DNA of 37,373 bases from an uncultured Actinomycetes bacterium (GCA_903943955.1 CAJAPZ010000058.1:1-37373); one strand, 5' to 3'; shown: positions 19,268-29,403, counted from the first letter of the stretch. Numbers and translations are program-made. The notes: generated from the sequence alone by a model not told the origin.

Positions 19268-19291
19268 CCGCGCCACTCGACTACGGCGCGG
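19268..19291 (-). terminator. Hairpin across the end of the DctP-type gene
   Basis: CCGCGCC (19268-19274) pairs with GGCGCGG (19285-19291) around a ten-base loop that contains the stop codon. It may contribute to ending the three-gene minus-strand operon, but the overlap with the coding end and the short stem make this weak. Confidence 0.3.
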
Positions 19292-20390
19292 TGCAACCCG
19301 CGGGGAATGGCTTGGGTGCGGGGGGCGAGATGGATGCCTTTAGGGCCTCGATCTGCTTGATGATGCTGCCGGTTGGCTGCTTGCGTGAGTACTTGTCATA
19401 CACGGGCTGAACGGCTGCGCGAAGCGCCGCGATCTGCGCAGGTGAGGCGTTACCGAACTTGAGACCCGCGGTGCACAGGTCCCCAACCAGAGTGCTCGTG
19501 GGGTCGGTCAAGATGGCGAGGGAGTCCGATGAAAGATCCTTCGCGGCCGCACGGATCCACTTCTCCTGGTCATCGGTCAACCGGTTCCACGCTCGCGTGT
19601 TCATTGCCAGCACGGTGGGAAAGGGCCACAGATTGACATTGCCCGACATGCAGGTGAGCACCTCGTACAGTTTCTGCGTGTACACCAGCCCTAGGTTGGC
19701 CTCGATCGCGTGTACCACCTTCTGCTTAAGCCCCAGATAGACGTCGCTCAAGGGAAGAAGCACCGGCTTGGCACCCAGCGCAAACAGGCTGGTGGTGAGG
19801 AGGGGCGATTCCACCGAGCGCACCTTCACTCCCTCGAAGTCGGACGGTGAGAGCAGGCACGATGAGGCAGAGGCCGGCTTGCGGATGCCCCCTTCGTGAA
19901 TAGCAATCCCGGTGAGCTCGATTGCCTTCGTCCCCTTCAGCATCTGCGTGGCGATGGGGCTCGCGAGCACCGCACTCTCCAGGGCGTAGCTGTTCACGAG
20001 GAACGGCATTTGCAGGGCCTCGAACGAATCCACGCCCTCGAGCTCCCACACCGCTGCTGACACCGACCCGGCCATGATGGTGCCATCGCGCATGTCGTTT
20101 AGAAGCTGGATGTCATCGCCACCGGCATACGTGGGAACCAGCTCAATACCGAGTCGGCCCGAAGAGACTTTGCCGACCCGATCGGCGAACATTTGCAGCG
20201 CCTTGCCATACGGGTGCGTGGGTGAGGTGACATAGCCCACCTTGATGGTTTTTTCGGCGCGGTTGGCATCGGTGCCCGAGATGGCCGCGGGTGCAGGGAC
20301 GGCGCCAACGGCGGAACCCCACATCGCAACTCCGACGAGGAGGAGGGCGACGAAGCCCGCGATAACCGCCCGCTGGATGGCCGGGGTCAT
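19281..20390 (-). CDS. DctP-type TRAP solute-binding protein, orphan
   Basis: The 369-residue product is an exported DctP/TRAP substrate-binding protein. A long hydrophobic N-terminus (AVIAGFVALLLVGVAMWG) is a signal peptide or anchor. Then come IKVGYVTSPTHPYGKALQMFADRV, FEALQMPFLV and VKVRSVESPLLTTSLFALGAKPV with Arg191 at the usual carboxylate-binding position, and DVYLGLKQKVVHAIEAN, where most relatives read VDGxEN. Such proteins bring organic acids to DctQ/DctM permeases, but no permease is nearby. It lies 22 bp after the DUF4239 gene and is the last of three linked genes. ATG 20390 is preferred to an upstream ATG at 20474 because the signal peptide begins there; no ribosome site is seen. 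Confidence 0.85.
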   Translation of the reverse strand: MTPAIQRAVIAGFVALLLVGVAMWGSAVGAVPAPAAISGTDANRAEKTIKVGYVTSPTHPYGKALQMFADRVGKVSSGRLGIELVPTYAGGDDIQLLNDMRDGTIMAGSVSAAVWELEGVDSFEALQMPFLVNSYALESAVLASPIATQMLKGTKAIELTGIAIHEGGIRKPASASSCLLSPSDFEGVKVRSVESPLLTTSLFALGAKPVLLPLSDVYLGLKQKVVHAIEANLGLVYTQKLYEVLTCMSGNVNLWPFPTVLAMNTRAWNRLTDDQEKWIRAAAKDLSSDSLAILTDPTSTLVGDLCTAGLKFGNASPAQIAALRAAVQPVYDKYSRKQPTGSIIKQIEALKASISPPAPKPFPAGCTAP

Positions 20391-20412
20391 GAGGGGAGCC
20401 CCGCGAACGGGA

Positions 20413-21231
20413 TCACGGGCACGATCCATCCACCCGTGGATCGAGGGCGAACTGGGAAATCGATGCCACGGCACGGGTCATCGCAGTTGGCTCTACCACG
20501 GGGAGAGGCCACTCTCCGGAATAGGGACGGTCGAGCGATCCGATGAGGATGACGGTGAAGGCAATAATGATGGCGGAGCCACAGACGACGAACGTTTGCA
20601 GCCATGCGAATTCCTTGGCCATCAGCACGGCACTCAGCGCGATGACGAGCATGGCGCCCACGACGACCATTACCCAGAACAGAACTGGCAGATGGGTGCC
20701 CATATCCAACCTCTGGGCGCGTGCCTCACGAAGGGCTGTCTCCCCTTCGATGAGCGACCCCATCACGGCATCCTTGACGCCATCTGTGGTGGAGATGCGC
20801 GCAAGCGTCTGCGAGATGCGGTCGCCGGATGCATCAGCGAACGGGCTTCCGCCTGCAGTCAGCCCCCCGGATCCGCTGTCGTTATTCGCCCAGTCGTACT
20901 CGATGACGTCACGCCCATAACAGACCAACTGGTGCGAGAGGTCATCGCGCAGCTGGGCGGGGATACCCAAGGCTGACCGCGACATGGTGGTGAGAGCCCG
21001 CCCTTCCGTCACCGCCGCCTGCTGCGCTCCTTGGAAGTTCTGAAGCGCGGCCACCAGAACGAAACCGAGGATGATGGCGAAGCCGAAGTTCAGGTCGTTG
21101 GGCCGCTCGGCAGCAAGTTCAGGAAACCGTACGAAGTCACCTCGGCTCCCGCGCCACCGTGTGTAGACGACCGCCGCCACACCAAAACCCACAATGGCGA
21201 GAAGCACGAGGACCGCGTAAAGGATCGTCAC
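20413..21231 (-). CDS. DUF4239 (bestrophin-like) integral membrane protein
   Basis: The 272-residue product has four predicted membrane segments: two near the N-terminus (TILYAVLVLLAIVGFGVAAV and FAIILGFVLVAALQ) and two near the C-terminus (VLFWVMVVVGAMLVIALSAV and FVVCGSAIIIAFTVILIG), flanking a soluble loop of about 110 residues. This plan, with AAVTEGRALTTMSR after the second helix, fits DUF4239, a family of unknown function that has been called bestrophin-like. GTG 21231 overlaps the stop of the upstream lipoprotein gene as GTGA, a sign of coupled translation. It sits between two binding-protein genes of unrelated types, so a role with an exported ligand is possible but unproven. Confidence 0.7.
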   Translation of the reverse strand: MTILYAVLVLLAIVGFGVAAVVYTRWRGSRGDFVRFPELAAERPNDLNFGFAIILGFVLVAALQNFQGAQQAAVTEGRALTTMSRSALGIPAQLRDDLSHQLVCYGRDVIEYDWANNDSGSGGLTAGGSPFADASGDRISQTLARISTTDGVKDAVMGSLIEGETALREARAQRLDMGTHLPVLFWVMVVVGAMLVIALSAVLMAKEFAWLQTFVVCGSAIIIAFTVILIGSLDRPYSGEWPLPVVEPTAMTRAVASISQFALDPRVDGSCP

Positions 21232-22577
21232 GAAACAGATCCGGTTGCAAATGACCGCCCACGCACGAGCTTGCCATCTTCCACCCGATATCCACCAAAC
21301 AGGGTGGTGGTGGTGTCTCCGAAGATATCGATGGAGTAGGTGCCGATGACCGAGTCGCGCGTATCTGTGGACAGAGCCGCCTCGCGTACAAGATCGCGTT
21401 CGCGGTCGATCGGCATATCAACAAACCCGGGGGTCTCATTGGCCGTGCGGATTGCGTCGAGCGTGAGCGCCATTCCCTCGTAGGCGAAGAGCACAAGGCT
21501 GCTGGGACTATGCCCGAGCCGCTTCGCCAGTCGATCGTGTGCCTGCTTTCCCCGGGGTCCATACGCGGCGAGCGGCAGCAGGTAGCTGGTGAGATAGGTA
21601 CGGGACTCCAGGCGCCCGAGGCGACCATGAAACCCCCGAAGCGCAAGCCCATCGGGCGCAAAGATCACCATCTGTTCATCAGACGCACCCGCGGCCCGGG
21701 CGACACGGAGCGCCGTGATTGGATCGTTTGTGGCGATCATGAGCGCCCACCGGGCGTTGTCATCTTTGTGGCGAACCCCGATGGCGCGTCCCACCTCAGC
21801 GGCGTTCTCGGGTGTGATCGTGATGGGAGGGCCGTCAATTTTCAGACCGGCTTCCCGGGAGGCGGTTACAACATCGCGGCCGAGCCCCTGCCCGTAAATG
21901 GTGCCATCCCGCACCACGGAGACGCTGCTCACGCCTTCGTCGCGCATGTAGGTGGCGAGCGCCTTCGACTGCACCAAGTCGTTGGGCACGACGCGGACGA
22001 TGGTGCGGACTCCCGTGGGTGCGACTGCCGTTGGCGGTGCCGGCAGGCCGTCGTCGCGACGGGTCAGGTCCACTGCTGTTGCTGTCACGCTCACATGAAG
22101 CAAGCCGGCGCGGTTGAGAATAGGAGCCATTTGCCGCATGCCATTTGATGTGATCGAACCGATGACCGCGAGCGAGTACGGGTCAATGGCTGCCGTCTCG
22201 GCAGCATCGACAGCGCGCGCAGCCGACTCGGCGCCCGTGGGCCCAGAGGTGTTATTTGTGCGAAGGCGAATCCGCACCCCCGATATCGCGTCTCCACCAT
22301 CAGCGAGGGCCATTTCCACAGCGGCCCGCATGTCTTTGGCATCCCCGCCCGCAAGACCGAGTGGCACCACCAAGTGCACCGTACGAACGGGTCGCACCCG
22401 ATACTCGGCCACCGGGGCGTCACTTCCGCCACCGCACCCCGCGGTGCCCAGGCCCACAAGCGCCGCGGCAACCACGCCAACGACGAAGAGACCCAGCCGT
22501 CGTCGGCCTCGTTGCTGCCGGGAATGGGCATGCTTTCCCGGAAGTTGGTCAGGTGAGGAGGCGATAGTGGGAAACAT
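21228..22577 (-). CDS. LivJ-type ligand-binding lipoprotein (Peripla_BP_6)
   Basis: This 449-residue protein has a basic N-terminus, a hydrophobic stretch (LGLFVVGVVAAALVGLG) and a lipobox GTAGC, so it should be anchored on the outer face of the membrane. The mature part is a type I periplasmic fold like branched-chain amino-acid binding proteins: VHLVVPLGLAGGDAKDMRAAVEMALAD, IGSITSNGMRQMAPILNRAG, VVPNDLVQSKALATYM and LVLFAYEGMALTLDAI. Such proteins feed ABC importers or act as sensors, but no ABC permease or ATPase is near. It is the first gene of a three-gene operon and couples to the DUF4239 gene. ATG 22577 is preferred over an ATG at 22646; the upstream sequence has only a weak GGGG. Confidence 0.85.
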   Translation of the reverse strand: MFPTIASSPDQLPGKHAHSRQQRGRRRLGLFVVGVVAAALVGLGTAGCGGGSDAPVAEYRVRPVRTVHLVVPLGLAGGDAKDMRAAVEMALADGGDAISGVRIRLRTNNTSGPTGAESAARAVDAAETAAIDPYSLAVIGSITSNGMRQMAPILNRAGLLHVSVTATAVDLTRRDDGLPAPPTAVAPTGVRTIVRVVPNDLVQSKALATYMRDEGVSSVSVVRDGTIYGQGLGRDVVTASREAGLKIDGPPITITPENAAEVGRAIGVRHKDDNARWALMIATNDPITALRVARAAGASDEQMVIFAPDGLALRGFHGRLGRLESRTYLTSYLLPLAAYGPRGKQAHDRLAKRLGHSPSSLVLFAYEGMALTLDAIRTANETPGFVDMPIDRERDLVREAALSTDTRDSVIGTYSIDIFGDTTTTLFGGYRVEDGKLVRGRSFATGSVS

Positions 22578-22766
22578 TACCCCGTCATTGCATGGCCACC
22601 CGGGCTTCCCTGATACGAGTCCCCGTTGATCGACCACGCGACTCATGTCACCGGCACTTGGGCACCCGCAACGCGTTTCGACCCCCAGCGCATCTGGTGG
22701 TCCTCCCCCCTACCGCGTGTCCCAAACGGACACCCCGCACCTTGGTGGCGTGCCATTCCTGACACC

Positions 22767-22819: not shown

Positions 22820-23917
22820 TCAACCGTTCCAGCTCGGTGTGACCGACACGGTGAGCGCCCGTGGAACGAGCGTGCGTGTGCCGCGTCCAGTCAGACTCGT
22901 CGTCTTGATGGCAGCCGGGGTGTCCTCGGAGCCAGCGGTGTAGAGCAGTCGCTTGCCGTCGGCCGACACGGCCACCGCGGTCTGAAGGCTGCCGCTGCCG
23001 CTGCTCAACAAGGTCGTCATGGCCCCGCCGGGGACACGGAATGTTGCCATGCCCATGTGGTCCTCACCGCCGATGAACCCGAACACCATGTTGCCGCTCG
23101 GCGACCATGCCACTGGCCCGGGGCCGGCCATGAGACCGGATGCCTTGTAGTGCGTCAGCTGCTTCTTTGAGGAGAGGTCGGGGCTGATGGTCCAGATCTG
23201 GGTGTGCACCATGGGGGTACGCGCCCCGTTGAAGGTCACCGTGACATTGGTGCTCTGCATCGCCGCGATGCCCGATGTGCTCCACACCGGCGCCGCTGCC
23301 CGGGCCAGCACCGCGGTGCGGGCTGTGGCGTTGGCGACCGGCGCCACGTACAGGGTGCCCGCAGCCGCGCGACTCCCGAACTTCATGAGACTGAAGGCAA
23401 TCTGCGTGGAGTCGGGCGAGAAGGCGACGCCATATGCCACCGCGTTGCCCGGGGCCGGGATGTAGTTGCCGACAGGAATGGACGACACGCCCTCGAGCGA
23501 CGCCGGGATCTGCGCCAGCCCGAGGCCGTTTCCGGTGACGAAGCCCTTCGCGTTCGCCGTTTCTGTAGCGCAGGCGAGCAATGTCGAGTCGGGCGACCAC
23601 GGGAGCACACCGGGCTGGCAGGTGCCGGTAAGGACAGCCGTGGACCCAGAGGCGAGGTCGCGCACGTTGCTTGTCGGATTGTCCTGCTTCGGGTTCCACA
23701 CCTGATATGCCACGCGAGACCCATCGGGAGAGATGCTGGCCGCGGTGCCGGCGACAACCTTCACGGCATTGGAGCCGTCGTCGTTGGCCAGCATCACCCA
23801 CGAGGTGGAGGAGCCCTTCGCGGGAGGTGCGACGTAGACCATGGTGGCGGTCGCGATCGTGGGGGCTGAGACGGCAGCGATACCGGCAGCGAGTACCAGC
23901 ATGGTTCGGGCAGTCAT
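22820..23917 (-). CDS. Secreted TolB/WD40-like beta-propeller protein
   Basis: The 365-residue product starts with a signal peptide (TARTMLVLAAGIAAVSAPTIATA) and is built of TolB-like blades that recur as SISPDGSRVAYQVW, LPWSPDSTLLACATE, VAFSPDSTQIAFSLM, VAWSPSGNMVFGFIG and AVSADGKRLLYTAG. Propellers of this kind bind proteins or ligands outside the membrane; no catalytic residues are apparent and no partner gene is obvious. The ATG at 23917 has AGAGG at a good distance. A hairpin at each end isolates it as a single-gene unit. Confidence 0.8.
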   Translation of the reverse strand: MTARTMLVLAAGIAAVSAPTIATATMVYVAPPAKGSSTSWVMLANDDGSNAVKVVAGTAASISPDGSRVAYQVWNPKQDNPTSNVRDLASGSTAVLTGTCQPGVLPWSPDSTLLACATETANAKGFVTGNGLGLAQIPASLEGVSSIPVGNYIPAPGNAVAYGVAFSPDSTQIAFSLMKFGSRAAAGTLYVAPVANATARTAVLARAAAPVWSTSGIAAMQSTNVTVTFNGARTPMVHTQIWTISPDLSSKKQLTHYKASGLMAGPGPVAWSPSGNMVFGFIGGEDHMGMATFRVPGGAMTTLLSSGSGSLQTAVAVSADGKRLLYTAGSEDTPAAIKTTSLTGRGTRTLVPRALTVSVTPSWNG

Positions 23918-24035: not shown

Positions 24036-24710
24036 TCACTCCCCATCGGCGCGAGGCGCCCCGCGCGTGACCACACGGCATGGGCCTGTGCGTGGATCAA
24101 CCGCGTCGAATGCCACGAGTTCGCCGTGTTCGTCCGCGAGAATTCCGCGCACGACCCCACGATGCAGCGCGCAGATGGTCGGCGCGGTCTCAGGGGTAAT
24201 GGAGTCGGCGTACGGGCAGTGGCGGAGCAGCACTTCAGTCTCACCCCGGCGTGCCGCAGCTGCATCGGTGATGTCGTCGGGGGCGAATCCCATGCGCCGG
24301 AAGCCCGACACCAGCCCCATGCCCTGCCCCGCAAGCGCGCGGCCATCCTCAACGCCGGCCGCCTCGATCTCGGGCTCCGTGAGACCGGCGCTCTGCACCA
24401 GCTTCAGCAGCATCCCCACAAGCGCCTGTCCGGACTCAACCTCAGCCATCGCGGCGGGATCGGCAAGGCGATAGATGATGCGCGGTCGCCCAGAGCGCCC
24501 GGTCAACCGCTCGCGGGCAGACGAGACGAGCCCGGCGCGGGACAGAATGCTGAGATGGGTGCGCACGGCGTTGTGATGCAGATCAACGCGGTCGGCCAGA
24601 TCGAATGCGGTCACCCCATCCGACATGGCGGTGAGCACCTCAACGATTCGACGCCGTGATGGATGCGCCATCGCCGTGATCGCCTCGTCGCTCAGCCGGC
24701 TCTCGCTCAT
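24036..24710 (-). CDS. COG2345-type winged-helix regulator with Cys-rich C-terminus
   Basis: The 224-residue protein has an N-terminal ArsR/MarR-like winged helix: SDEAITAMAHPSRRRIVEVL, a recognition helix region LADRVDLHHNAVRTHLSILSRAG and a wing with GRSGRPRIIYRL. The C-terminal domain carries HCPYAD (Cys165), ICALHRG (Cys180, His183) and a late Cys211, the pattern of COG2345/SufR-like regulators that can bind metal or an Fe-S cluster. The true ligand is unknown. ATG 24710 has AAGGAG eight bases upstream and settles the start. Its neighbours, a DUF2249 protein and a radical SAM enzyme, suggest control of redox or heme-related genes, perhaps through the palindrome at 25569-25596. Confidence 0.82.
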   Translation of the reverse strand: MSESRLSDEAITAMAHPSRRRIVEVLTAMSDGVTAFDLADRVDLHHNAVRTHLSILSRAGLVSSARERLTGRSGRPRIIYRLADPAAMAEVESGQALVGMLLKLVQSAGLTEPEIEAAGVEDGRALAGQGMGLVSGFRRMGFAPDDITDAAAARRGETEVLLRHCPYADSITPETAPTICALHRGVVRGILADEHGELVAFDAVDPRTGPCRVVTRGAPRADGE

Positions 24711-24876
24711 GACGTGTACTCCTTGCATCGGATCGGGGGACGAGCGGGACTCTGGGGCGATTGATTGGCGATGCGCCGGAGTATCGTAACCGGCTGTCCG
24801 GGTACCGGGAGCACCAACGCACACCGGTATGCAGGGCCGTCTCTCCCGGTGGCCCTCACGGGGCACCGAGACGATT

Positions 24877-24912
24877 GCGTCGGAGCGGGGCGTACGTCCC
24901 CCGCCCCGACGC
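24877..24912 (-). terminator. Long hairpin after the DUF2249 gene
   Basis: GCGTCGG then GCGGGG (24877-24883, 24885-24890) pair with CCCCGC then CCGACGC (24899-24904, 24906-24912), with one A/C mismatch and an eight-base loop. It lies 43 bp past the stop at 24956 and before the regulator gene, in a 245-bp gap that otherwise shows nothing clear. Confidence 0.55.
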
Positions 24913-24955
24913 CCCAGTACCGACTACTCCGCTGGCACCGACGTGCATCCACCGC

Positions 24956-25552
24956 TCACCTGCAGCCAATCCTGACGCGCCACTCCTCCGGCCCGGCCTC
25001 CAGATAGTCCCATGTAAACCCAGTGGGCCGCTGGGCATCGAACTGGAACCGAAGCGGCTTGGGGTCATGGTCGTTCAGAAGCACGAACGCCTCGCCGGGG
25101 CGCAGGGTGTCAAACAGACCGAAGATGGCCGGGTGCTTCGCACGGGGCGGCAATACCCGGGCGTCAAGCACCGTGCTGCCATCTGGTGACTCGCGCAGCC
25201 CATCGTCCGGTATGACCTCAGCCGGTCCCGACGGAAGCCGGGGGCCGGTCTCCCCTGATGCAAGCCGCCAGATAGTGACGCACACTCCCGAGCCATCGCA
25301 CGGCCTCAGCGAATAGCCGAACCCGTTCTCGGACAGATACGGGAGCAGAAATACCGGCACCCGATCGACCATCTGCTCCAGGGCCACGCCGTCGCCGAGA
25401 TGGTCGAGGGCCATGATCGTTCGGTCAAATGGCTCAGGCGGATCGAGGCCGCGGACATCGAGGGTGACGCGATCGTCGGGCGGTGACGACACGACCATCG
25501 TCGGTGGCCGGCATCCGCATTCCGGCCCATGTGCATTCGTCTCAACGGCCAT
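24956..25552 (-). CDS. Tandem DUF2249 domain protein
   Basis: The 198-residue cytoplasmic protein holds two DUF2249 copies. The first (about 29-95) reads TLDVRGLDPPEPFDRTI, LPYLSENGFGYSLRP. The second (about 128-197) is closer to the family: LDARVLPPRAKHPAIFGLFDTLRPGEAFVLLNDHDPKPL and a terminal GPEEWRVRIG. DUF2249 proteins occur with hemerythrin-like, nitrite- and nitric-oxide-related genes, but no reaction is known. The N-terminus has a Cys pair (ECGC). The ATG at 25552 has GAGGGG six bases upstream. It diverges from the radical SAM gene with a palindrome between them. Confidence 0.83.
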   Translation of the reverse strand: MAVETNAHGPECGCRPPTMVVSSPPDDRVTLDVRGLDPPEPFDRTIMALDHLGDGVALEQMVDRVPVFLLPYLSENGFGYSLRPCDGSGVCVTIWRLASGETGPRLPSGPAEVIPDDGLRESPDGSTVLDARVLPPRAKHPAIFGLFDTLRPGEAFVLLNDHDPKPLRFQFDAQRPTGFTWDYLEAGPEEWRVRIGCR

Positions 25553-25568
25553 CTGCGTCCCCTCGTCT

Positions 25569-25596
25569 GGTTATTCTGTCAACGGGCAGTATAACC
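25569..25596. promoter_or_regulatory. Near-perfect palindrome in the DUF2249/radical SAM divergent promoter
   Basis: GGTTATTCTG (25569-25578) and CAGTATAACC (25587-25596) are inverted repeats matching in nine of ten positions around an eight-base spacer. The right arm contains TATAAC (25590-25595), a plausible -10 for the plus-strand gene, so a bound dimer would block it. The AT-rich arms stand out in a GC-rich region. It looks like an operator; the best local candidate to bind it is the COG2345-type regulator, which is inference. Confidence 0.6.
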
Positions 25597-25643
25597 TTAT
25601 GGGGATATGTGGTGCTCCTGTATCGATTCGCCGGGGATCTGAG

Positions 25644-26711
25644 ATGAACACCGTGACGCGCAGCACACGAGCCTCCGCCGCTCCAGCCATGAACCTGGCG
25701 TCACTCGCCCGCAACCCCGTCATCGTGGCGTGGGAGGTCACCCGGGCCTGCGGATATCGCTGCACGCATTGCCGTGCCGATGCCCAACCTCTTGCCGCCC
25801 CAGGGCAACTCGACGAGGCCGAGGCGCGCGACCTCATCGACGAGCTCGCCACGTTCGACGGCACCACACTCGTGATCACCGGTGGCGACCCGATGCTCCG
25901 GCGCGATCTTGTTGACATCACCCGGCATGCGACGGCGCGGGGCCTGCCCGTGGCACTCACCCCGAGTGCCACGCCGCAGGTGACCGAGGCGCGCCTGGGC
26001 GAGCTGGTCGACGCCGGCCTCTCGCGCATTGCCATCTCGCTGGACGGTGCGACGGCAGCCACCCACGACGGCATGCGGGGTATCCGCGGGTCGTTCGACC
26101 GCACCATCAGGATTCTGCGAATGGCCCGGGACATGGGCATCCCGACGCAGGTCAACACCACCGTGACCAGACTCACGGCCCCCGATCTCGATCGCATCGC
26201 GGCCATCGTGGAGCTGGTCGGGGCCAGCATGTGGAGCGTGTTCTTTCTCGTACCGGTGGGTCGTGGAAGCACCGCCGACGTTCTTGGTGCCGACGAGACC
26301 GAGGTGGTGCTCAACCGCCTGGCTGATCTGGCACCCACGCTCCCGTATCGCCTCAAGGTGACCGAGGCGCCTTCCTACCGCCGTGTTCTCGCCCAGCGCG
26401 GTGTGGAGCCGGGACCGCCTGTCAACGCCGGGCGGGGGTTCATGTTCATCTCGCATGATGGCGACGTCCAGCCCAGCGGGTTCCTCACAATCCCTGCTGG
26501 CAATGTGCGCCACTGCTCGCCGGTTGTTCTGTACAGGGGGTCCCCGCTCTTCCGGGCACTACGCGATCCAGCCCTCCTTGCCGGGAAATGCGCCTCCTGC
26601 AGATGGGCCCGCGAATGCGGGGGGAGCCGTGCCAGGGCCTGGACCATGACCGGCCTGCTCTTCGGGGACGACCCAACTTGTCCCCATATTCCCGAAGGTG
26701 AGTTATGCTGA
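25644..26711 (+). CDS. Radical SAM/SPASM protein, TIGR04053 (AhbD/NirJ-like) type
   Basis: The 355-residue protein has the radical SAM cluster motif CGYRCTHC (Cys36-x3-Cys40-x2-Cys43) after VIVAWEVTRA, then TGGDPMLRRDL and SLDGATAATHDGMRG. A SPASM-like tail has FMFISHDGDVQPSGF, KCASCRWARECGG and PTCPHIP, so an extra Fe-S cluster is likely. This arrangement is that of the TIGR04053 family, related to the heme synthases AhbD and NirJ. A role in heme or peptide modification is inferred, not shown. ATG 25644 is chosen; it has only a weak GGGGAT site. A frame back to 25413 overlaps the divergent gene and looks spurious. Confidence 0.85.
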   Translation: MNTVTRSTRASAAPAMNLASLARNPVIVAWEVTRACGYRCTHCRADAQPLAAPGQLDEAEARDLIDELATFDGTTLVITGGDPMLRRDLVDITRHATARGLPVALTPSATPQVTEARLGELVDAGLSRIAISLDGATAATHDGMRGIRGSFDRTIRILRMARDMGIPTQVNTTVTRLTAPDLDRIAAIVELVGASMWSVFFLVPVGRGSTADVLGADETEVVLNRLADLAPTLPYRLKVTEAPSYRRVLAQRGVEPGPPVNAGRGFMFISHDGDVQPSGFLTIPAGNVRHCSPVVLYRGSPLFRALRDPALLAGKCASCRWARECGGSRARAWTMTGLLFGDDPTCPHIPEGELC

Positions 26712-26800
26712 ATTTCGAACTTTCCGCGTAACCGGGGGGCTCAATCGGCGGCCGGAATCGACCGTGCAGCCGCTCTGCCATCGAACGGCGGCGCGGCCAT

Positions 26801-26829
26801 TTGACAAGCGCGTGCACCTACCCTGCAAC
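26801..26829 (+). promoter_or_regulatory. Possible promoter of the IPT/TIG secreted protein gene
   Basis: A perfect TTGACA (26801-26806) is followed 17 bp later by TGCAAC (26824-26829), a poor -10, and the ATG lies 39 bp further on. The 157-bp gap after the radical SAM gene needs some promoter, and the -35 match makes this the best candidate. Confidence 0.3.
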
Positions 26830-26868
26830 GTCGGCTCGAGATTCCAAACCACTCACCAGGAGCCATTG

Positions 26869-29403
26869 ATGCCCCCCTTCCGACGCAAGATCACCACCAC
26901 CGTGATCGGCGCTGTGTGTGCGGCGTTGTTCGCCTGGGTGGGCATCGCTGCGGCGGGGAGCACTCCCGCGTACAAGATCACGGTGGTGAACAGCACGGGG
27001 CAGGACCCCGCCAACGTTTTCGTCACGCTCATCGCATCGAACGCGGCGCCCAAGCAGCCATCGAGCCTTCCCTCGGGACTCGCGATGGGCACCGCCTACG
27101 CGCTCGACCCCATCGGCTCGGGCACCCCCTGGGTGAGTGAGGGCGGAAATCGTTACTCCATCAGCGTGAGCGGCGGCTGGAACTCCGGGACCATTCTTTA
27201 CAGCCTCGGCAAGGGCTACGGGAACAAGCCGACGGCGGGCGCAAACAACCACCCGTACGACTTCTCCGAGCTCACCGTGAACGGAGGAAGTACGTTCGCG
27301 CTCAACGGTGATATCTCGTCGGTCGATCAGATCGGGGTTCCGGCCCGGCTCTCGGTGCTGGCCCCGGGGCGGGTCCAGGCGCTCCGCGACGGATCGACTC
27401 AGCCCGCCACCGAATATGTGGGCTGCGTGGCGAGCACCTGGAACCTCCTCAACCAGTACGCAGGGAATACCTGGCCGTCAGGCACCGCCCAGCAGGCTGT
27501 GTACCGCACATCCGGCGGATCGTTTCTCCAGCTGCTCGGACCATCGGCGGGCGGGGCGTGGGCCAACTACCCCAGCTTCCAGCAGTACGTGCAGAGCGTC
27601 GTCGGTGCGGGCATCACCATCACGGGCAACTTCGCCGGCAGCACCACGTATGGATCCCCGGCGTCCACCTACAGCTATACCGGCACGCTCACGGCGGACG
27701 GTCAGTGGATCAAGATGTCGGGCACGCTCGGCAACAGCGCGTACACAACCAAGGACATTTACGTCCCGTTGTCCGAGATGTACGGGCACGACGATTCGGT
27801 GTGGACCGGTGCGAATGGCTACGGCGTGTACCGGCAGAACGGCCCGTACGTGCTGGCGGGACCCGCTGACCCCCAGCCCGGGTTCGGCGCGACGGCGTAC
27901 TTCAACACTGCGCCCCCGTTCCCCGCTCAAGGAAATACCAGTGGCCCCCTCACCATCAGTGGCTACTCCCCGGTCAATCCCCCGTCCGGTGCCTATGCGA
28001 CCGACGCGAATGACATCTATGGCTGGATGTACGGCGATCTCGTGGCGTCCTTCGCAATGGGATACGCAGGCTCCAACTATGGATCGAACTCCGTCGCGTG
28101 GAATACGAACGCCGTGCCGCCGTGGGGTATCGAAGGCAGCGGAGGTCCCGCGCCATTTGCCCCGGCATGGACGAATCCATTCCCGGGCTACCCCCTGTTC
28201 AACGTGTATCAGGCAGCCGTCAACGCCACGGGCACGACCTACGGCTCACCGCTGAATGACCGCTTTACCCCTGCGGATACCACCAGCCCTGAGCTGGGGG
28301 TCACCCCGCCCACCACGGCGTCCGGTCCGTACTCCTGGGCCATCGAACTTCTCGCCCAGAACGGGTGTGCACAGGCCCTCAGCGTGTCCCCCGCCAGCGG
28401 ACCCGCCTCCGGTGGCCAGCCGGTGACCATCGCGGGCCACAACTTCCATCAAGGCGCCACCGTCACCTTTGGCGGGGTGGCCGCGACTGGTGTGCAGGTA
28501 TCGCATAACCCCGCCACGTCGATCGACACCATCACGGCCGTCACCCCCAGCTCCCCTGTGGGCGGCGGACCGGTGAACGTGCGGGTCACGAATGCGAACG
28601 GCTCCAAGGCGCAGAACATCGACACGAGCATGCTCCCGGGTGCCTACGCATACCCGACCGTGAGCGGTGCAGCAGCGGGGAGCCCCGCGGCGCCCGGCGG
28701 CCTGCCGCTCGGTGCCGGTGTCGTCAGGTACCCGGGAAAGGGGTGCTCATCCACCGACGTCGTGCGGGCACCTCTGCAGGCCAAACAGGCCCGGGCGCCC
28801 AAGGTCACCGTGCCGTCGGGCGGCATCATGGCGCTCTCCGTCACGGGCCTCCCAAAGAAGGCTGAGGCCTCGGTATCAGTTCAGGTGAATGGCACGTGGG
28901 ACTTCCTTGGCCGGATCACTGCGAACGCCGCGGGCCATGCCGTGCTGCCGCGCTACTCGCAGAGCACACGGGGGCAATCATTGCTCATCCGGGTAAGTGC
29001 CGGCCGCAAGGGCACGCGCTACCTGCGCACGGTGGCGGGCAGCCCTCGCGATTGGGCCGGGGTCGCGCTCAGTCCGGTGGTCACGTCGTACCCGATCGGG
29101 ACCTGCCCTGTGCACTCCGCCAGCGCGCGCAAACCGGTCACCGCGGTGCTCGGCAAGGCCCCCACCGCATCCGTGCCGCTCGGTGGCACGACCGTGGTGC
29201 GTGTGCGCGGCATTAATCGCAACACGAGCACCGGGGTTGATCTGAGAATCGGGTCACGCTGGCGCTTCGTCGGACGGGTGACATCGGCATCCAATCGGGT
29301 GCTGTCCCTGCCCCCAATTGCCATCAACCAGAGGGGCAAGGTCATCGCCGTGCGCCTGCGCGCAGCGGGGGCCACGCGTTACGCAAAGGTCAGAGCCTCC
29401 TAG
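26869..29403 (+). CDS. Large secreted protein: GH64/thaumatin-like N-terminal region, IPT/TIG domain, duplicated C-terminal module
   Basis: This 844-residue protein begins with a signal peptide ([23 protein letters not shown]). Residues about 35-490 resemble the GH64 beta-1,3-glucanase/thaumatin-like group: [41 protein letters not shown] and [21 protein letters not shown]; this is a pattern match and the catalytic residues are not confirmed. An IPT/TIG domain follows at about 500-585 ([20 protein letters not shown]). The last 230 residues are two copies of a module of about 105 residues, each with a YP-Cys start and a VP-GG strand. ATG 26869 has AGGAG six bases upstream. Its stop overlaps that of convergent ribBA through CTAG. 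It is probably an extracellular polysaccharide- or surface-binding protein. Confidence 0.7.

Follow-up and report, generated by a model that had tools for sequence, protein, structure and literature searches.

Known partners of solute-binding proteins include ABC transporters, TRAP transporters and certain receptors. LivJ-LivHMGF ABC importers combine a LivJ-type binding lipoprotein with LivH/M, and TRAP transporters (DctPQM) combine a DctP-type binding protein with DctM. In GluR0-type bacterial ionotropic glutamate receptor homologues, a periplasmic-binding fold is coupled to a pore. Bestrhodopsins, the rhodopsin-bestrophin fusion channels of algae, have a sensor module fused to the channel domain (PMC12291454). 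The locus described here lies in a 37,373-nucleotide stretch of DNA from an uncultured Actinomycetes bacterium (the window). It shares a LivJ-type binding lipoprotein (Peripla_BP_6 match) with the first of these systems and a DctP-type binding protein bearing the family's Arg with the second, but the genome of the window was found to have neither LivH/M nor DctM, and the membrane partner of the lipoprotein is a protein of family PF14023. We propose, with a probability of about 50%, that the locus encodes a binding-protein-coupled channel of bestrophin type that would be gated by ligand-loaded binding proteins; such a coupling, if true, would be a new use of solute-binding proteins.

Three genes on the minus strand are transcribed in the order LivJ-like, PF14023 and DctP-like. 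The first (positions 21228-22577 of the window) encodes a LivJ-type binding lipoprotein of type I periplasmic-binding fold, as judged by Pfam (Peripla_BP_6, E 3e-16, with ANF_receptor also matched), by a lipobox (..LGTAGC, with Cys47 at about 22437-22439) in its translation and by an AF2 model; an alternative ATG is possible upstream at 22646. The second (20413-21231, minus strand) encodes a four-helix membrane protein of PF14023, formerly DUF4239 (E 8e-27), which is bestrophin-like by Pfam, AF2, Foldseek and hhalign. Its GTG start codon and the stop of the LivJ-like frame share a 4-bp overlap, GTGA (21228-21231, minus strand). The third (19281-20390, minus strand), the ATG of which lies 22 bp past the PF14023 stop, encodes a DctP-type binding protein of the TRAP family (PF03480, E 5e-44, by Pfam and NCBIfam, and by alignment to 4p47). 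Coordinates and Pfam matches thus confirmed the three consecutive genes, the overlap and the gap reported in a preliminary description of this DNA. On the downstream side lie a convergent alpha/beta hydrolase gene and RecG.

Upstream of the LivJ-like gene is a gene for a TolB/PD40-like propeller (22820-23917, minus strand), possibly a further partner, homologues of which were also found near the type C PF14023 loci described below (L045 2017-3144, L043 1978-3105 and L077 757-1878; genomes G009, G019 and G017). Further along the window (24036-26711), genes for an ArsR-type regulator and a DUF2249 protein (minus strand) are grouped with one for a radical SAM/SPASM protein (plus strand) that scores just below the TIGR04053 cut-off, and positions 26698-29403 (plus strand) encode a secreted-looking protein of 901 residues with no NCBIfam match at E 1e-10.

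The preliminary description had found no permease near these genes, and for the LivH/M and DctM types this was borne out and extends to the whole genome, which is 2.0 Mb in size and 99.99% complete by estimate. Profile searches for cognate permeases elsewhere in this genome returned no match to PF02653 (LivH/M) or PF06808 (DctM). PF02653 was likewise unmatched in eight relatives (nine genomes in all) and detected in 12 of 14 control genomes; PF06808 was unmatched in seven congeners and detected in seven controls and in G020, a member of the same family. Both families were missing from all seven congeners. The DctM search can be relied upon because in G020 it detected a DctM gene that adjoins DctP on one contig. 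Permeases of the PF02653 and PF06808 families are therefore absent genome-wide.

Yet this genome gave six matches to Peripla_BP_6 and carries DctP at two places. The lack of both cognate permease families in a genome with these binding proteins favors the main rival to a gated channel, an uptake pore or carrier in which PF14023 stands in for the missing LivH/M or DctM and LivJ-like, DctP-like or PstS-like proteins hand over a solute that is moved along the bestrophin-fold pathway, down its gradient or by ion coupling. Such a reading must explain accumulation with no energy source: the PF14023 system contains neither an ATPase nor a domain for ion coupling, scarce solutes would not be concentrated by a pore that is passive, and an inside-negative potential works against the entry of anions. 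We consider uptake possible but rather unlikely.

We examined whether the gene order recurs in related genomes. The LivJ-like/PF14023 pair (type A) was found in nine genomes, that of the window and eight others, in which the orthologues keep the identical 4-bp overlap; the order persists at 36-38% identity in another genus. All genomes with the pair are actinobacterial MAGs, sampling having been confined to one phylum, and sample names in the records read as a lake habitat for some of them. Public MAG contigs labelled Bifidobacterium breve (L101, L103 and L107) also carry homologues of the locus, and these labels look wrong. A DctP gene follows the pair in only three near-identical species (G000, the window's relative G002, and G003), which rules out the exact trio as a conserved unit. 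Thus, of the three genes described earlier, the LivJ-like/PF14023 core is conserved and the DctP gene is, on sequence comparison, a lineage-specific addition at the window locus.

A second, paralogous locus (type B) has the order PstS-like (PF12849), PF14023 and LivJ-like with overlapping frames, and was detected in at least 15 genomes, including ten of family f1, three of f23 (G115, G721 and G737) and two of f134 (G602 and G669). At the type B locus of G002 a divergent DctP is also present, and in the window's genome the same genes are split over a pair of short contigs, C114 and C132. Each of the two DctP genes in this genome would therefore lie beside a PF14023 locus, the second as inferred from synteny with G002. 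In G019 the type B genes are embedded in an arginine biosynthesis operon, argC-argJ-[PstS-like/PF14023/LivJ-like]-argB-argD (L100, 6519-14006), the four arg genes being confirmed, and the same arg clusters flank type B in several other congeners. The association of unrelated binding folds with one membrane protein fits the handing over of cargo; by contrast, a permease specific for its substrate would not usually work with binding proteins of three structural classes on one translocator family.

In a third arrangement (type C), PF14023 is divergent from genes for a small membrane protein and a LivJ-like protein. This linkage is weaker, being missing from about half of the clade, partly owing to contig ends. 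The small membrane protein, of about 220 residues, is paired at type C loci with LivJ-like genes, and G199 has it next to PF14023 itself (loci L046 6287-7108, L042 1601-2272, L082 9734-10384 and L154 5741-6394); the L154 copy is weakly DUF4337-like, and those tested from the genus had no Pfam match. Another LivJ-like gene, in G020 (L089, 5086-7624), adjoins a HAMP histidine kinase and perhaps forms a binding-protein/kinase pair with it.

Within the genus and G020, 25 of 36 PF14023 genes had a Peripla_BP_6 gene no more than 2 kb away where 0.5 were expected; the P value of this linkage overstates its significance, as the genomes counted are related. The linkage is not due to chance. In a tree of 75 PF14023 domains, type B formed one clade (14/14 linked to binding proteins) and type A a separate clade (8/8 linked), each with support of 100/99, and the linkage label required 6 changes on the tree compared to 23 in shuffles. 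Most PF14023 genes of the phylum have no adjacent binding-protein gene, and PF14023 must therefore have some function alone.

The two genes were also found joined in single reading frames. Intact PF14023-LivJ proteins of 706-717 residues occur in G571, G756 and G810 (genus g127, family f44) and in G534 (family f108); in the proteins of G571 and G534, Pfam detected PF14023 and, behind its fourth helix, the binding domain. The same fusion in G195 (g127) is frameshifted and was excluded from the intact count. One of the fusion genes sits after purH. Two other long PF14023 frames (L081 and L185) were considered as fusions and rejected, since they had no LivJ profile match and what lengthens them looks like upstream sequence of low complexity or a short tail of unrelated origin. 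Fusion of these neighboring genes in two families provides strong evidence that PF14023 and LivJ-like proteins work together. ABC importers also include membrane proteins with fused binding domains, a precedent for uptake, and thus fusion alone cannot separate gating from uptake.

It may be asked whether scavenging lipoproteins have simply been clustered, by accident or for shared expression, with an unrelated membrane protein. The restriction of DctP at the window locus to three near-identical species would fit such a view, as would type B inside argC-argJ-argB-argD, where cotranscription need not mean joint function. Against this stand the overlapping frames, which persist down to 36-38% identity, the complete linkage of at least two clades and the fusions in two families, and chance clustering is nearly excluded. 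The suggestion in the preliminary description of a novel system, in which DUF4239 forms the membrane part and soluble binding proteins take part, was well supported by the gene order, two kinds of trio, the fusions and the lack of a LivH/M or DctM permease, except that DctP is not a core partner and the more widespread trio has a PstS-like protein in its place.

We next considered what PF14023 may be. Pfam names the family 'Bestrophin-like' (previously DUF4239), and the window protein matched nothing beyond PF14023 at E <= 0.001 among curated Pfam models, including that of bestrophin. A search with PF01062 gave no match in the controls and was replaced by one with PF25539, which is carried by E. 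coli and had no match in the window's genome. The AF2 model of the window protein, built from nine sequences, was of moderate quality (pLDDT 72, pTM 0.64). By Foldseek, its 50 best PDB matches were all KpBest (Klebsiella bestrophin) or mutants thereof, at a TM of about 0.64-0.73 and a probability of 1.00. When 75 PF14023 sequences plus that of the window were compared by hhalign to five Bestrophin_2 sequences, a match of 197 columns was obtained (probability 94%, E 1.2e-7); smaller alignments gave weaker matches, and a single YneE sequence scored a probability of 8.7%, yet in the right register. A sequence search of the PDB with the PF14023 profile found no credible relative. Marks in register with bestrophins included GF at the neck end in TM2, a Pro starting TM3 and PF(S/G) past TM4. 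The neck of KpBest is formed by I62/I66/F70 (PMC9253114), and the hhalign register places a neck-like stretch of TM2 at residues 49-57 (F49, I53 and F57; 21061-21087, minus strand), where F57 is found in 63/76 proteins and I, L, V or F in 74/76 at position 53, while position 49 is variable. Remote homology of PF14023 to bestrophins is thus well supported by predicted fold and profile comparison. The view of DUF4239 as the membrane part stood, and its description as a protein of unknown function holds only in part.

PF14023 is predicted to be inverted in the membrane relative to bestrophins, with its collar and its N- and C-termini outside, as several lines of evidence suggest: the charge bias, a co-varying Cys pair and the C-terminal LivJ fusion. 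The mean net charge of 26 aligned proteins was +2.0 for the TM1-TM2 loop, -5.9 for the TM2-TM3 loop and -2.0 for the C-terminal tail; the TM2-TM3 loop of the E. coli bestrophin YneE is at +6. The helical TM2-TM3 loop of the window protein (20692-21033, minus strand) includes Cys104 (20920-20922), and the tail past TM4 (20416-20529, minus strand) includes Cys271 (20419-20421); on charge counts and Cys co-variation the loop is predicted to be extracytoplasmic, as is the tail. By a count over 69 proteins, uncorrected for relatedness, 30 have Cys104 as well as the tail Cys and 36 have neither, with three exceptions, two of which are cut at contig ends. Such co-variation suggests that the pair forms an extracytoplasmic disulfide. 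The tail is also the position at which LivJ is fused in relatives, and the LivJ-like domain is a lipoprotein when separate and lies behind TM4 when fused. By contrast, the collar and termini of bestrophins are cytosolic.

Binding proteins activate sensor kinases in other systems (PMC11113362), and PF14023 might likewise be a pore-less membrane receptor or scaffold that relays ligand occupancy to a cytoplasmic partner; the LivJ-like gene beside a histidine kinase at L089 of G020 is in line with this. The predicted topology, however, leaves PF14023 with only short cytoplasmic loops and no signalling domain, the Pfam scan detected no kinase among the neighbors in the window, and no partner of that kind was found repeatedly next to types A or B. 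A relay of this sort is improbable.

A lipobox was present in most of the paired LivJ-like orthologues, and the AF2 model of the window LivJ-like protein matched Leu-binding proteins and mGluR ligand domains, although its inter-lobe angle is unreliable. The DctP-like protein has a hydrophobic N-terminus and no lipobox, and its alignment to 4p47 revealed that the conserved Arg of the family is kept; this residue aligns with the carboxylate-binding Arg of the family. The ligands are probably small solutes, amino acids or carboxylates. The position of type B amid argJ and argB-argD, together with the fusion after purH, hints at a nitrogen-related ligand.

In the channel reading, PF14023 would be the bestrophin-fold subunit of what is probably a pentamer, inserted opposite to bestrophins with its helical collar facing outside. 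The LivJ-like lipoprotein, joined by the DctP-like protein in the window lineage, would bind small solutes; loaded binding proteins may dock on the collar or the C-terminal tail of PF14023, and their open or closed state would control how ions, or small organic ions, pass through the neck. The operon, its recurrence, the fusions, the bestrophin homology and the lack of a LivH/M or DctM permease are well supported; the moderate AF2 model, the variable first neck position and the many PF14023 genes with no binding-protein neighbor count against the channel reading, as does the fact that neighboring binding-protein genes are not always functionally tied to the genes next to them (PMC11113362). 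We suggest, more tentatively, a new bacterial class of ligand-gated channels, in which the outside gate of inverted bestrophin-fold pentamers would be worked by LivJ, PstS and DctP proteins, three classes unrelated to one another, with fusion to the channel in some lineages. In the open-access literature searched, no account was found of a link between binding proteins and PF14023, and the combination is, as far as tested, a new kind of system.

Coupling to binding proteins would give a first idea of what one branch of PF14023, or more, may do. As a channel, the system would be a bacterial ligand-gated type built from parts unlike those of GluR0 or the pentameric Cys-loop homologues; as a transporter, it would be a permease type missed by current annotation and would account for the binding proteins that stand as orphans in lake bacteria with small genomes. 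An inverted bestrophin homologue, if true, would be of interest for the evolution of membrane proteins. The single-chain PF14023-LivJ fusions make the coupling directly testable.

Compared to known systems, the way of working proposed for the PF14023 locus, a binding fold acting with a pore, is that of the GluR0-type receptors, but the class of binding fold is a different one, the GluR0 pore is of K-channel type and unrelated, and no GluR0-type domains were detected when the proteins of the window were scanned with Pfam. With bestrophin channels (PF01062 and PF25539; KpBest and human Best1/2), PF14023 shares the predicted fold and the TM2-TM4 profile homology, but it forms its own Pfam family, is predicted to be inverted, is linked or fused to binding proteins and does not conserve the first neck position. 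Bestrhodopsin, in which a sensor is coupled to a bestrophin-type domain, provides a precedent for a PF14023 protein coupled to binding proteins, with the difference that the sensor proposed here is a soluble solute-binding protein, usually a separate lipoprotein, in a bacterial system that is built on PF14023 and not on bestrophin proper.
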